A stretch of DNA of 64,000 nucleotides from Candidatus Poribacteria bacterium. GTDB lineage: Bacteria > Poribacteria > WGA-4E > WGA-3G. Location of the stretch: NCBI GenBank assembly GCA_026710795.1, contig JAPOQK010000013.1, positions 17,110 through 81,109 of the forward strand. The letters are read 5' to 3'. The translations under genes and the position numbers were made by a program. How positions within the stretch are numbered: the stretch's first letter is position 1; each line of letters opens with the position of its first letter. This document shows, in pieces, positions 14,396 to 19,473 of the stretch. The notes beneath the pieces were generated by a model. The model was not told the origin of the DNA and ran no database searches. It worked only from the letters and a program-made list of their open reading frames with translations.

Positions 14396-14601
14396 TATAT
14401 GAGGGTGGTGCATAAATAACGTTCTACCGAGTCTTCTGTAGGAGCGACCTCCCGGTCGCGACCAAGAAATCAAGAAATCAACGGTATGAATGCCTAAATG
14501 GCGTTCCCCGTGTCGCTCCTACAGAATGTCAGAAGATTATGAAATAAACCGCTTTCTTTTGCATTGTTTGAAAAATAATTATGAACCACCCTCATTATAT
14601 A
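14396..14601. mobile_element. MITE-like element overlapping the 3' end of the fusion gene
   Basis: About 206 bp bounded by near-identical terminal inverted repeats: left TATATGAGGGTGGTGCATAA, right (reverse complement) TATAATGAGGGTGGTTCATA. It has no coding capacity. Inside is a second inverted pair, CTGTAGGAGCGAC and GTCGCTCCTACAG. The right terminus supplies the last six codons (YNEGGS) and stop of the sigma-FtsZ-DnaE gene, which suggests insertion into that gene. The TA-rich ends would fit a Tc1/IS630-like mobiliser, but that is inference. Confidence 0.6.
14436..14524. repeat. modular palindromic repeat, copy 1
   Basis: TGTAGGAGCGACC...GGTCGCGACC, a GTATGAATGCCTAAATGGCG module and closing GTCGCTCCTACAG. 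The same modules recur at 24441-24576, 54479-54508 and 63715-63928. Confidence 0.75.
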
Positions 14602-17600
14602 ACGGTGCTATGTTGATGTCAACATTCAGGAATTCTGAAAGTTTAGCACATTCATCTCTGATCCTGTCAATCTTGTCTGAGTCAGGTGCTTCTCCATTCA
14701 ACTGTGATGCAATAAATTCCTGTGGATAGTGTGTTTTTAAATACGCCATCCTGTAAGATAACAATGAATATGTAACAGAGTGCGATTTTAGGAAAGCATA
14801 TGCTTCTCCATTCAACTGTGATGCAATAAATTCCTGTGGATAGTGTGTTTTTAAATACGCCATCCTGTAAGATAACAATGAATATGTAACAGAGTGCGAT
14901 TTTAGGAAAGCATATTTTCCAACAGTTTTCAGATAGTCAAGTATCTTCTCAGCATCAATTCTGGATATGCCATTTTCTGCTGCACCATCAATAAATTTTG
15001 TCCGTTGTTGATTTATTATATCTACTTTTGTTTTTCCAATTGCTTCTCGGAGGATATCAGCTTCTCCAAACGTATATCCAGCGACATCACATGCAATCTG
15101 CATTATCTGTTCCTGATAAATACATAAACCGAAAGTACTCTTGAGTGCACTTTCAACTGAAGGATGTATATATTCTATCGGTTGTAGACCGTTTTTCCTA
15201 TCAATAAACTGTTGCATCAATCCACTCCGAATGGGACCGGGACGATAGAGTGCTACAATTGCAGAAAATACCTCAAAATTATCTGGTTTGAGTTGTGTAA
15301 CTACTTCATACATACCAGAGGAAGTATCAAGTTGGAATAAACCAACAAGTAAACCCTCACTGATAAGAGAATAGGTTAGTTTATCCTCAAGTGGTATGTC
15401 TTCAAGTGCAATCAGGTGACCATGGTTTTCACGAATCATTTTCAAGCATTCAGCAGTGGTTGTTAGGCTTCTTAGTCCAAGTACATCGAATTTAACTATA
15501 CCCACATTTTCAACAGTTTTTCCTTCAAACTGAGTCGCAACTTCCCCGTGTATATCCTTAAATAATGGTGCATAGTCGGATAGTGATCCTTTTGATATTG
15601 CTATCCCCGAAGCGTGAGTGGAGGCGTGACGTTTCATACCTTCAAGTCCCTTACTAATTTCAATTAAATCACTATATTCACTTTGTTCTGCAAAGGCTTT
15701 AAATTCCGGCACTGTTTCGATTACCTCATCTAATGTAACACTCGGTAATGGTGGTATAAGTTTAGTTAACTTATCAATGTTTTCTTTTGGAACTTCAAGA
15801 GCACGACCTACATCCTTTATTGAAGATTTTGCTCCGAATGATGCAAAAGTAGCAATTTTACCGACAGAATCATGACCATATTTATTAATTAGGTAATTTA
15901 TCATGTCGTCACGAACATTATCAGCAAAGTCAATATCAATGTCTGGTGGATTTAATTTCTCAGGATTTATGAAGCGGTCAAATATACATCCGTGTTCCAT
16001 TGGATTGAAACTGATAATGTCCAGTGCGTAAGAGACAAGACTACTGGCAGCCGAACCGCGTGCAGAACACAAATGTCCCTGTTCTTTTGCATAAGCTACA
16101 TAATCTGCTACAATAAGAAAATAGTCTACATAACCTGCCTGCTTAATTACATTGAGTTCATATTCCAGTTGTTTGTGGATTGGATCGGAAAGATGTCCTC
16201 CTATCTTCTGTTTCAAACCATCATAACACAATTTATCAAAGTAGTTATCTTGTATGAATCCCTCAGGAACATCAAATTTGGGAATCACATTCCTGTCGTA
16301 ATCAAGTATTAGATTACATCTGTTGGCGATTTCCGTAGTGTTGAATATTGTTTCAGGTGGAAATTCTTTGAATGCCTCTTGCATCTCGTCAACATTCTTA
16401 AAGTAGTAATGATTGTTAAATCGCATTCGTTGCGGATCATTGACAGTCTTTTTGGTTTTTATGCATTGAAGGATGTCATGCGTACGTTGATCGGATTCTT
16501 TTAGGTAATGACAATCGTTTGTGCCGACAATATTCAGATTAAATTCATTTGCCAGATCAACCACTATAGGATAAGTAGATAATTCGTTTTCAAGATAGTG
16601 GTTTTGAACTTCCACAAAAAGATTATCCTCACCCATAATATCTTTCAGATATAGAAGATTACGGGTTGCTTCATCCTTTTGGTTAGAACTGATCAATTTC
16701 GGTACCAATCCATTGATGCAACCAGTCAATGCAATTATGCCACTGTGATATTCACGCAGCATTTCCAAGTCAATACTGGGTTTTCTATCAAATCCTTTTG
16801 TATATCCGAGAGATGTCAATTCTAATAGATTCCGGTATCCAACTGCATCTTCTGCTAATAATGTCAAATGAAAGAGTCTATTCGTGTTATCTCCCTTTGT
16901 CTTTTCACTATTTGTTGTTACATTTACCTCACATCCGACTATAGGATTTACCCCTGCTGATTTTGCAGTGTTGTAAAATTCCCATGCACCAAACATGTTA
17001 GCATGGTCTGTGAGTGCGACGGCTGGAGAACTGTTTTCAACTGCCCACTGTATCATATCTGGTATGCGGCAAGTACTGTCTAATAAACTATATTCACTGT
17101 GGTTGTGTAGGTGAACAAATTCTGATGAATTCGAAGGTGAAATGATATTCTCTTGTTCAGGTGAATCTCCACGTTCTGTTTGTGTAGATGGAGAAGATGG
17201 TCCTTTTCTGGATTCCGACCCACTTGCTATTACTGTCACAATTACTTCATCGGTACTTTCTAAGTGATCTTTAACTACCAATCCGAAGATCGGTTGTGCA
17301 ATTGGTGTTTTTTCCACGATAACTCTCATAGTTGCATCTAATTCATACATCGTATAATCTGGTGGAGAAGTAATCTTTACAATCATCCCAACGGAATCAC
17401 TTAGGCTTTTTTCTTCAAGAAGTGGAGAAGTGACAGCATTCTCTGCAGCAATTTTGGCACGGTTTTTTCCACTGCCTTTTCCAATACCCATCAAAAAAGT
17501 TCCTTGATCACGTAAAACCCCTTCCAAATCATCGAATTCCAAGTTAATTTCTCCAGATGCTGTAAGGATATCGGTTATCCCATTCATACCCTGGATCAGT

Positions 17601-18763
17601 ATTTCATCACTTTTTTCAAAGGCATCCTGCATCGGTATATCATCTTCAACTAAATCAAGTATTCGTTGGTTAGGCACCACTATGACCGCATCCGCGCAAG
17701 GTTGAGAATTGTCTTTCAGTGAAATTATACCTTGTTCCGCTTGCGATATCCGATGTTCACCTTCAGACTTAAACGGGGATGTTACAAAACATACAGTTAA
17801 TGCCCCAGTTTCACGTGCCAGTGATGCTAATAGAGGTGCAATAGCTGTTCCTGTTCCTCCACCCATTCCGGCAGTAATCATAATCAACTGAGCATCAGAA
17901 ACTATAGAACGGAGTTGATCTATGTTTTCAGCAGCAGCTTTCTTGCCAAGTTCCAATATGCCATCAGTTCCAGTACCACCCAGTCTATTTCTACCTATTT
18001 GCACGGTTGTTGCACCATGACAGGTACTGAGTGTATCACTATCTGTATCTACACAGTAATATTCAAAATAATTATTTTCATCATCTATCAATTGTGTTAC
18101 AACCTTACATCCTGCTCCACCAACACCTATAATCTTTGATTTCGATTTTATACTATCTGATTGGTCTTTTTCAACTGACATAGTCTTCCCCTTTATAGGT
18201 TCGATTTCAAACTGTTTGCGCAGAAGTTCCCTAATCTCACTAAGTCTTGTCTTTACAGTTCCCAGCGCTAAGTTGAATTCCTCCGCTACCTCTTTGATAC
18301 TAAATAAGTCAAGGTAGTACATTTTTGCGATAGAACGCACACGCTCTGGTAACTGATATACTGCTTCTTTTGCATCAGCTCGGAGTCTTTCATCATGAAA
18401 ACGTTGTTCAGCATCTATATCAATCTGTTTAGCCAAATCCTCATAATCCAATATAATCTCGCTGTTACGATACCGATTAGATGCATAATATCTGTTACAA
18501 GCGGTTACAGCGATACGACGCAACCACGCGCCAAAACTCTCAGCCTTACGTAGTCCGATAATGTTTTGCCAAACTGCCATCCAGATGTCCATCATAATTT
18601 CTTCAGCATCCCGTCTTTGTCTCGAATTATCCATTACTATGTGCCAAATACGTGGACTATATCGTGCGACTAATTCTGTGAATGACGTTTCATCACGACA
18701 TTGGACAAGCCGTACCAATTCTACATCTGTTAGGTTATTAGGACTTTCAAAATTATAGTGCAT
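14579..18763 (-). CDS. ECF sigma factor - FtsZ - DNA polymerase III alpha fusion, C-truncated
   Basis: One uninterrupted 1394-residue frame with three housekeeping modules. Residues 1-~190: ECF sigma factor (region 2 FTELVARYSPRIW, DAEEIMMDIWMAVWQN; region 4 IKEVAEEFNLALGTVKTRLS). Residues ~205-512: FtsZ GTPase (IIGVGGAGCK, tubulin signature AGMGGGTGTAIAP, T7-loop-like INLEFDDLEG with Glu for the first Asp), without the usual C-terminal FtsA/ZipA peptide. A Ser/Pro linker leads to DnaE from ~549: PHP motifs HLHNHSEYS, TDHANMFGAW, GTNDCHYL, then palm PDIDIDF and KFDVLGLRS with all three catalytic Asp. DnaE stops after the fingers, lacking HhH, OB-fold and tau-binding parts. An in-frame 38-residue duplication lies near the end. 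AAGGGGA before Met195 (18181) could start FtsZ-DnaE separately. Confidence 0.85.
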   Translation of the reverse strand: MHYNFESPNNLTDVELVRLVQCRDETSFTELVARYSPRIWHIVMDNSRQRRDAEEIMMDIWMAVWQNIIGLRKAESFGAWLRRIAVTACNRYYASNRYRNSEIILDYEDLAKQIDIDAEQRFHDERLRADAKEAVYQLPERVRSIAKMYYLDLFSIKEVAEEFNLALGTVKTRLSEIRELLRKQFEIEPIKGKTMSVEKDQSDSIKSKSKIIGVGGAGCKVVTQLIDDENNYFEYYCVDTDSDTLSTCHGATTVQIGRNRLGGTGTDGILELGKKAAAENIDQLRSIVSDAQLIMITAGMGGGTGTAIAPLLASLARETGALTVCFVTSPFKSEGEHRISQAEQGIISLKDNSQPCADAVIVVPNQRILDLVEDDIPMQDAFEKSDEILIQGMNGITDILTASGEINLEFDDLEGVLRDQGTFLMGIGKGSGKNRAKIAAENAVTSPLLEEKSLSDSVGMIVKITSPPDYTMYELDATMRVIVEKTPIAQPIFGLVVKDHLESTDEVIVTVIASGSESRKGPSSPSTQTERGDSPEQENIISPSNSSEFVHLHNHSEYSLLDSTCRIPDMIQWAVENSSPAVALTDHANMFGAWEFYNTAKSAGVNPIVGCEVNVTTNSEKTKGDNTNRLFHLTLLAEDAVGYRNLLELTSLGYTKGFDRKPSIDLEMLREYHSGIIALTGCINGLVPKLISSNQKDEATRNLLYLKDIMGEDNLFVEVQNHYLENELSTYPIVVDLANEFNLNIVGTNDCHYLKESDQRTHDILQCIKTKKTVNDPQRMRFNNHYYFKNVDEMQEAFKEFPPETIFNTTEIANRCNLILDYDRNVIPKFDVPEGFIQDNYFDKLCYDGLKQKIGGHLSDPIHKQLEYELNVIKQAGYVDYFLIVADYVAYAKEQGHLCSARGSAASSLVSYALDIISFNPMEHGCIFDRFINPEKLNPPDIDIDFADNVRDDMINYLINKYGHDSVGKIATFASFGAKSSIKDVGRALEVPKENIDKLTKLIPPLPSVTLDEVIETVPEFKAFAEQSEYSDLIEISKGLEGMKRHASTHASGIAISKGSLSDYAPLFKDIHGEVATQFEGKTVENVGIVKFDVLGLRSLTTTAECLKMIRENHGHLIALEDIPLEDKLTYSLISEGLLVGLFQLDTSSGMYEVVTQLKPDNFEVFSAIVALYRPGPIRSGLMQQFIDRKNGLQPIEYIHPSVESALKSTFGLCIYQEQIMQIACDVAGYTFGEADILREAIGKTKVDIINQQRTKFIDGAAENGISRIDAEKILDYLKTVGKYAFLKSHSVTYSLLSYRMAYLKTHYPQEFIASQLNGEAYAFLKSHSVTYSLLSYRMAYLKTHYPQEFIASQLNGEAPDSDKIDRIRDECAKLSEFLNVDINIAPLYNEGGS
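14688..14915. repeat. in-frame 114-bp tandem duplication inside the DnaE part
   Basis: Two consecutive copies of a 114-base unit (14688-14801 and 14802-14915) that look identical. Each encodes 38 residues beginning AYAFLKSHSVTYSLLSYRMA. Other DnaE proteins have this fingers segment once. Confidence 0.9.
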
Positions 18764-19473
18764 ACATAGTTCCCATTTAGAATTTGGTAATAAGAGGGAA
18801 GAATTAGTTAAGTTGGTTTAAAAAAATGAGAAAAAACTTAGTGGTAATCCTGGTGAATTTTAAAAATCATAAGACATTATACATGTAGGGTTGACTCGGG
18901 GATTGCTAAAGGACAGAATACACTTTTGGTATTCTGCATGCTTCATACCGTTGAATTAGCCAATTTGACACTATCGGTAAAGCATTTCTTATGTGATTGC
19001 ATTTGAAAGTAGAAGCATCATATCCGTACCTCATGAGTTATGATTTTTCTCTCATGAAAATGTAACCTTTTGCGCGTCACTGTGACGTTTTGAATCCAGT
19101 CAGGACAAGGAATGTGACGCGAATTTCACTTTTTTTTGGAGCTCCTTTTTTGTTCTATTTCGTTCAACATGTAAGTGTCAATTTAATGATACACCTGTCT
19201 TGGACAATCAACGTACCCATAATAATTGTTGATTTTGCATAAATTACACTTTTGGGTATATGAAGTTTGGGTTTCCGCATCCTCAAGGATCCTCAATATC
19301 TCTTAGATTATCTCAATGTGCGTCTCTATTATAAACATATGTTAATTATATAGAACTATTTTGTGTATGTCAAATAAAAAAATAGAATTTTATATTAGGT
19401 ATATATTGGATTTTATATTTTAGATGTATTGTCGTATTGTTTTAAGACAGGATTGACTAAGATTTACGGAGTA
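18764..19473. other. 710-bp gene-free region
   Basis: No supported gene. It holds a copy of the dispersed repeat (19068-19181) and otherwise very AT-rich sequence towards 19350-19440. It is the 5' flank of the sigma-FtsZ-DnaE gene; I could not pick a convincing -35/-10 pair for that gene. Confidence 0.6.
19068..19181 (+). repeat. dispersed repeat family, copy A
   Basis: Contains the family core CAGTCAGGACAAGGAATGTG, then ACGCGAATTTCACT, a T-run and GCTCC. It is preceded by paired CGTCAC/GTGACG blocks. Related to copies at 24841-24990 (opposite strand) and 51422-51580, but shorter and more diverged at its right end. Confidence 0.8.

Follow-up and report, generated by a model that had tools for sequence, protein, structure and literature searches.

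Regulatory C-terminal extensions are established for several sigma factors of the extracytoplasmic function (ECF) type, and passages in PMC8999054 and PMC8103513 describe them for ECF41 and ECF42, which carry SnoaL-like domains, and for ECF57, which carries WD40-like repeats. The gene described here lies in a 64,000-nucleotide stretch of DNA from a Candidatus Poribacteria bacterium (assembly GCA_026710795.1, contig JAPOQK010000013.1, positions 17,110 to 81,109), which was analysed at full length and is called the window below. It joins, in a single reading frame, an ECF-type sigma factor, the division GTPase FtsZ and DnaE, the alpha subunit of DNA polymerase III. As in the described families, sigma regions 2 and 4 are followed by an extension, and two paralogs in the same genome have WD40 partners. 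Unlike in those families, the part added to sigma is a core-machinery paralog (FtsZ, DnaE, DnaN or PurC), and the junction holds a conserved internal start. Searched by term, neither article contains FtsZ or tubulin, and PMC8999054 does not contain DNA polymerase. The initial annotation of the window, made from its letters, had supposed that such a joining of modules was undescribed. Among the papers listed in our open-access literature searches there was likewise no description of a sigma-FtsZ-DnaE fusion, nor of any protein joining transcription initiation, division and replication in one chain; the fusion is old and widely conserved in its family. The passages that name Poribacteria in PMC7203096 and PMC12879404 (the latter also names FtsZ) mention no fusion, and the part of the metaproteome report PMC6081418 that bears on the group gives six poribacterial proteins, all with putative oxidoreductase activity.

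We consider it plausible, at chances somewhat short of even, that the protein acts as a sigma switch whose onboard FtsZ-DnaE copy would sense attack on, or failure of, division and replication. The layout of the gene is as follows; every Pfam match on the window protein scored above its curated cut-off.

14579 to 18763, minus strand: open reading frame of the sigma-FtsZ-DnaE fusion, 1394 aa; the same architecture is found in 29/84 genomes
18473 to 18673, minus strand: sigma-70 region 2 (Sigma70_r2), residues 31-97, by Pfam
18224 to 18367, minus strand: sigma-70 region 4 (Sigma70_r4_2), residues 133-180, by Pfam
17648 to 18136, minus strand: FtsZ/tubulin GTPase domain, residues 210-372, by Pfam (Tubulin/FtsZ) and a structure model
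17219 to 17503, minus strand: FtsZ C-terminal domain (FtsZ_C), residues 421-515, by Pfam
17123 to 17212, minus strand: Ser/Pro-rich linker, residues 518-547, predicted disordered from the structure model
16598 to 17113, minus strand: PHP domain of DnaE, residues 551-722, by Pfam
15476 to 16243, minus strand: DNA polymerase III alpha palm/thumb (DNA_pol3_alpha), residues 841-1096, by Pfam, with D943, D945 and D1093, which we take to be the catalytic residues
14969 to 15466, minus strand: DnaE finger domain, residues 1100-1265, by Pfam

The 1394 codons run without a stop, and the order of modules, the linker and the three motifs named in the initial annotation (GGGTGTA in FtsZ, PDIDIDF and KFDVLGL in DnaE) are all borne out. 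Regions 2 and 4 are present and the region 3 domain is absent, as tested with Pfam for an ECF sigma, and the sigma part scores 73.4 bits against TIGR02937, where the cut-off is 42.9. With phmmer the FtsZ part aligns with solved FtsZ structures and the DnaE part with solved DnaE structures. An AlphaFold2 model of residues 1-547, built from 41 sequences, has a mean predicted local distance difference test score (pLDDT) of 77.7 and a predicted template modelling (TM) score of 0.58; the sigma and FtsZ modules are mostly folded, with weakness at 96-125 and pLDDT below 50 at the junction (188-205) and in the linker (518-547). In Foldseek the FtsZ part matches FtsZ structures, the target TM-scores being 0.81-0.95 among the 50 matches listed.

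Each partner differs from its free counterpart in what it has lost. The fused FtsZ resembles the family defined by TIGR00065 in having both domains, the fold, most GTP-binding residues and T7 Asp412, whereas it falls below the equivalog cut-off (274.5 against 295.2 bits), lacks the C-terminal tail and is joined on both sides. Similarly, the DnaE part has the PHP, polymerase and finger domains and the catalytic residues of a DnaE1-type polymerase. The initial annotation was right about this PHP-palm-fingers module and its catalytic motifs, but the module is a truncated core and not a whole replicase, since its alignment with the 1178-aa DnaE of the same genome ends at residue 804 of the latter, some 370 residues short. 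The missing end comprises the clamp-, OB- and tau-binding parts. No Pfam match to an OB domain was found in the window protein, and the window copy also lacks HHH_6, which is found in longer relatives.

The first explanation to be weighed is that of an assembly artefact or pseudogene. In its favour is one feature of the window copy:

14687 to 14915, minus strand: exact 114-bp tandem duplication within the DnaE part, in the window assembly only

The duplicated unit encodes 38 aa close to the C-terminal end of the DnaE part. Because its motif occurs twice only in the window protein among 113 fusions, and once in the 94% identical P0002, the duplication is private to this assembly and either very recent or possibly an assembly artefact. 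For the family as a whole an artefact is refuted, and we leave it practically no chance. The three parts form one continuous frame in 29 of 84 phylum genomes, all in two genera of one family and two of them single-contig assemblies (G081 and G082), at a conserved locus and under purifying selection. The fusion is broken in G053 (two frames) and G062 (a TGA), and cut by contig ends in G010 and G056. A large protein search gave 7933 clusters over threshold, and of the best 120, 112 are 1300-1760 aa long with all three modules by precomputed Pfam calls; these and the window protein make up the 113 fusions counted here, the eight shorter clusters being left out. The named relatives are Candidatus Poribacteria, and a few clusters go under the public name 'DNA polymerase III subunit alpha' or else 'cell division protein FtsZ'. 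As the initial annotation had suggested looking for, separate genes do lie elsewhere in the 4.70 Mb genome (114 contigs): a 442-aa ftsZ on C60 and two full-length dnaE on C20 (1178 aa) and C79 (1160 aa). Intact separate genes do not take the place of the fusion in the relatives, which carry either the three-part or the sigma-FtsZ form there in the loci seen.

Selection has acted on each module of the protein. Across ten genome pairs, the ratio of nonsynonymous to synonymous substitution rates (dN/dS) was 0.04-0.12 for sigma and 0.13-0.37 for FtsZ; within DnaE, PHP gave 0.05-0.17 and the polymerase 0.09-0.21, whereas the linker gave 0.08-1.31. Every module is under purifying selection by this measure. 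The polymerase aspartates are kept at D943 in 108, D945 in 113 and D1093 in 112 of the 113 fusions, and the PHP metal-ligand positions checked, as we assume them to be placed in the fusion, in 106-113. The FtsZ signature (positions 299-306) is kept in 108-113 and T7 Asp412 in 111; the T7 loop, residues 406-413 immediately N-terminal of FtsZ_C, reads NLEFDD in the window protein, whose FtsZ departs from the consensus at G307A and D409E. Of the columns invariant in 15 free FtsZ, 73/146 are kept at ≥90% in fused FtsZ, and the same comparison for DnaE gives 295/393. The FtsZ C-terminal conserved peptide is present in 15/16 free and 0/113 fused proteins. In a DnaE tree the 24 free DnaE fall on one side of a branch (92/97) and the fused ones on the other. 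The fused copies diverge faster: 65.8% against 97.8% identity for free FtsZ (G000 compared with G014), and 69.1-71.3% against 87.1-87.9% for free DnaE (G000 compared with G001, G002 and G004).

Active sites kept in this way would also suit a cell-cycle integrator, in which the FtsZ part would assemble along with the native Z-ring, the DnaE core would do so with primer-template DNA, and sigma would be held or released by a normal stage of the cycle rather than by attack. Most FtsZ GTP-site residues, the T7 Asp and the DnaE catalytic aspartates are retained, and an FtsZ-DnaN fusion in two genomes provides an independent link between replisome and FtsZ. However, the FtsZ tethering tail and the clamp- and tau-binding parts of DnaE, through which the coupling might be expected, are gone, one variant retains only the GTPase half of FtsZ, and a PurC partner does not fit. 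We regard this explanation as rather unlikely.

The second line of evidence concerns the junction between sigma and FtsZ, where the initial annotation had pointed to a ribosome-binding-like site before Met195 that could yield a separate FtsZ-DnaE product. Nested in-frame starts that let one gene make two proteins are known from CheA, SctQ and IF2. A further case is archaeal Cas11b (PMC11899642). Like these, the fusion has an internal Shine-Dalgarno (SD) sequence and an in-frame start, so that a second protein is predicted; unlike in them, the arrangement is found again and again where sigma meets its partner, in dozens of paralogous fusions whose partners are unrelated.

18188 to 18194, minus strand: internal SD-like AAAGGGG
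18179 to 18181, minus strand: codon 195 (ATG), predicted start of a sigma-free FtsZ-DnaE; Met in 113/113

The sequence AAAGGGGAAGACT precedes Met195, and codon 195 is Met in all 113 fusions while the adjoining codons vary. Over 29 sigma-FtsZ-DnaE loci the mean SD energy at this codon is −8.5 kcal, whereas synonymous shuffles average −5.0 and the remaining in-frame ATGs −1.6; at the first start it is −4.4 kcal (28 loci). The junction ATG has the strongest SD of all ATGs in 24/29 sigma-FtsZ-DnaE, 8/8 sigma-FtsZ and 12/12 half-FtsZ genes. In a survey of 63 distinct sigma fusions from the fetched loci, the junction SD reached −7 kcal or below in 61 and beat every control window in 54; the junction codon was ATG in 60 and GTG in three. 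In 21 g2 loci the windows around codons 190-196 rank with those of least synonymous variation; the tendency is weaker in eight g1 loci (rank 40 of 1355). All these counts come from related sequences and are therefore not independent. The 16S tail GGATCACCTCCTT, with its CCTCC, was found in the genome itself and in 40/57 family genomes.

We considered whether the junction SD is a mere by-product of the encoded amino acids. In part it may be, the shuffles keeping −5.0 of the −8.5 kcal on average for sigma-FtsZ-DnaE but not the whole signal. The GTG replacements, together with a start that has moved in sigma-DnaN fusions, speak for the start as such. In the 13 sigma-DnaN fusions checked there is, in every case, an SD-like site (−6.4 to −11.1 kcal) with an ATG exactly on the DnaN Met; five such genes of the window's own sigma subfamily have AAGGAGG there, and two of them lack the old codon-195 start. 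Locus C55 of the window genome, described below, is a natural experiment that supports it as well. Overall, the internal start before Met195 is strongly backed by conservation, and its product is predicted.

Similar junctions occur more widely among the sigma factors of this genome. The 13 other ECF loci looked at (L008-L020) comprise two short sigmas that lack an extension and 11 genes with long C-terminal ones; at one locus the junction codon is GTG. An SD of −10 kcal or below precedes an ATG or GTG right after region 4 in 10 of those 11 (L008 has −8.3), and the junction ATG is the strongest in nine of the ten loci tested.

A strong internal start could also mean that the gene is an autoregulated supply gene, its sigma being only a cis-made activator of its own gene and the working product a sigma-free FtsZ-DnaE, a stress form of the two enzymes. 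The promoter-like element upstream (see below) and the intact active sites fit this, and so does locus C55 of the window genome, where sigma is gone apart from a few residues and a stop, while AAAGGG, the ATG and an open FtsZ half remain. On the other hand, 29 genomes keep all parts in one frame where a stop codon would be enough, and breaks are seen only in G053 and G062; moreover, a truncated DnaE and half an FtsZ would be poor replacements for the real enzymes. We find a supply gene distinctly unlikely.

The third line of evidence is the range of partners. By Pfam, genes of this sigma subfamily carry FtsZ-DnaE, FtsZ, half FtsZ, DnaE, DnaN, SAICAR synthetase (PurC) or WD40, so that a C-terminal extension follows region 4. 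Of 150 subfamily genes listed, 148 lie in frames of at least 269 aa and one of the other two hits a contig end; 47 of the 148 are of WD40 size, judged by length alone. There are 13 fusions to DnaN, the sliding clamp (L116 4345-6078; L175-L186). Since two different sigma families carry it, DnaN was joined to sigma at least twice. The promoter-like element also lies ahead of the one sigma-PurC gene seen (L247 2560-4047, in G069). Single genomes with two or three dnaN paralogs side by side were noted as well (L187, G000:C73; L188, G001:C60).

A rival reading is domain recycling, in which the subfamily has to carry a C-terminal extension of one kind or another to serve as a steric brake, FtsZ-DnaE being an accidental choice with no specific link to division or replication. 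The 148 longer frames out of 150, and the dispensability of both DnaE and FtsZ, speak for this. Yet the catalytic residues are kept down to ∼51% identity and dN/dS across the DnaE part is 0.05-0.21, which is more than a brake needs, and we judge recycling to be very unlikely.

The architecture has changed repeatedly around a stable locus. A permease-family gene lies 5' of the window gene, and also upstream in 10/11 full three-part loci and 8/8 sigma-FtsZ loci; the exception among the 11, G003, has another neighbourhood in the fetched stretch. Other common upstream genes are TatD, SDR, dehydratase-like and isomerase-like. Between sigma-FtsZ-DnaE and sigma-FtsZ the tree calls for three changes or more, for which three losses of DnaE are the simplest account. 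Loss is the simpler direction because the last ∼40 residues of the sigma-FtsZ proteins resemble, by eye, a decayed start of PHP. A tblastn search for DnaE remnants 3' of the sigma-FtsZ genes gave weak matches only (best E 0.11). One gene, from G011 (1104 aa), has sigma and DnaE but no FtsZ; the DnaE tree puts it with the window clade (99/96), though on a long branch, and in the sigma-FtsZ tree its sigma was left unplaced. A second kind of locus, forming a single clade, has sigma with only the GTPase half of FtsZ (∼400 aa).

Two further architectures were observed. DnaN-FtsZ without sigma occurs in g3, the third genus of the family, as a 693-aa protein in G019 (L162 6926-9007) and a contig-cut copy in G021 (L135). 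In P0068 and L152 (G072) the three-part fusion has a C-terminal extra of ∼320 aa, which in P0068 has no Pfam match.

The final piece of evidence is a putative promoter shared by these genes. ECF sigmas recognise promoters of two parts, frequently those of their own genes.

18792 to 18822, minus strand: promoter-like element TTTAAACC-N17-CCTCTT, 28 nt 5' of the start codon

The pattern, with TTTAAACC and CCTCTT at a fixed spacing of 17 nt, was taken from an alignment of 16 upstream regions. It has 100 exact matches in 57 genomes, compared with six for the reversed pattern. For 63 of them a gene of the window's sigma subfamily follows at a distance of no more than 250 nt; these include all 28 listed three-part genes, 16 of which had defined the pattern. 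Seen from the genes, the exact element is upstream of 62 of the 150 listed. The window genome has two exact matches, before the window gene and a sigma-WD40 gene, and four sites with one mismatch, one of which precedes the second sigma-WD40 gene. We also looked at the first gene downstream in 40 loci chosen from the 100 matches, mainly those untied to a sigma gene, so that the shares are not genome-wide estimates. There were 13 subfamily sigma fusions, three other ECF fusions, six MacB-like and four ABC-2 genes, four WD40 genes, three sulfatases (which look intragenic), three others and four with none. Transporter genes of the MacB-like or ABC-2 kind thus follow in 10/40 loci, 11-358 nt away. 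Pfam confirmed the family of three transporters and one WD40 gene; the others were assigned from N-terminal similarity.

Taken together, a sigma switch carrying copies of its targets fits best because active sites are kept while coupling parts are lost, capture of partners is repeated, the promoter-like element is common and the start is nested. In this switch, the sigma domain would read the upstream element. As this element lies ahead of sister sigma fusions too, and of ABC-transporter genes in some relatives, the switch would be self-amplifying. The weaker first start would give a little sigma-FtsZ-DnaE, the alarm, and the stronger internal start more free FtsZ-DnaE, a co-assembling partner or decoy. 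Binding of a ligand, inhibitor or partner to the FtsZ or DnaE copy would then alter how available the tethered sigma is. FtsZ, DnaE, DnaN, PurC and WD40 would be target modules that can replace one another on one sigma chassis, FtsZ-DnaE being a case in point.

A number of observations weigh against this proposal. The exact element in the window genome precedes sigma fusions only and no transporter, and in the MacB-like cases it is 161-358 nt from the chosen start. At the junctions of sigma-DnaE and the two sigma-WD40 genes of the window genome the mean SD energy is −7.0 kcal compared with −7.1 for shuffles, the median per-gene shuffle fraction for sigma-FtsZ-DnaE is only 0.11, and a clear junction start was looked for and not found in DnaN-FtsZ. 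Within FtsZ, the G1-loop Gly216 is Asp in 78/113 and T7 Asn407 is kept in 84/113. The fast divergence fits relaxed constraint as well. DnaE was lost repeatedly, on the simplest reading of the tree, and FtsZ in one gene, so neither module is indispensable. Finally, we infer the gating of sigma by FtsZ-DnaE, the signal and the two products from the sequence.

A broader version of the switch is possible, although we rate it as doubtful. Here the ECF subfamily, obligately fused, would form a modular alarm with exchangeable target copies (FtsZ, DnaE, DnaN, PurC), each gene giving a sigma-tethered sentinel and a sigma-free decoy, and a common self-amplifying promoter responding to an attack on the real targets. 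Such a system would be the bacterial counterpart of integrated-decoy guards. The PADLOC anti-phage models assigned 0 families to the window fusion (P0001) and gave one weak match for sigma-DnaN (E 0.00055).

In other parts of the data, the search for RNA families (at the gathering threshold) and tRNAs gave none within the window. DnaE frames of up to 2210 aa with a broken-up alignment were seen at L073-L075, L077 and L079-L081 (Aquificota and others), suggesting inteins or large insertions.

The sigma half of this protein is of a known kind. What, to our knowledge, is new is that one sigma chassis has captured core-machinery paralogs again and again, with a conserved internal start that moves to each new partner. 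Should the cell-cycle reading be true, the machines of division and replication would be connected physically and directly to RNA polymerase. Should the guard reading be true, it would mean that bacteria hold sentinels built from copies of their own vulnerable targets.

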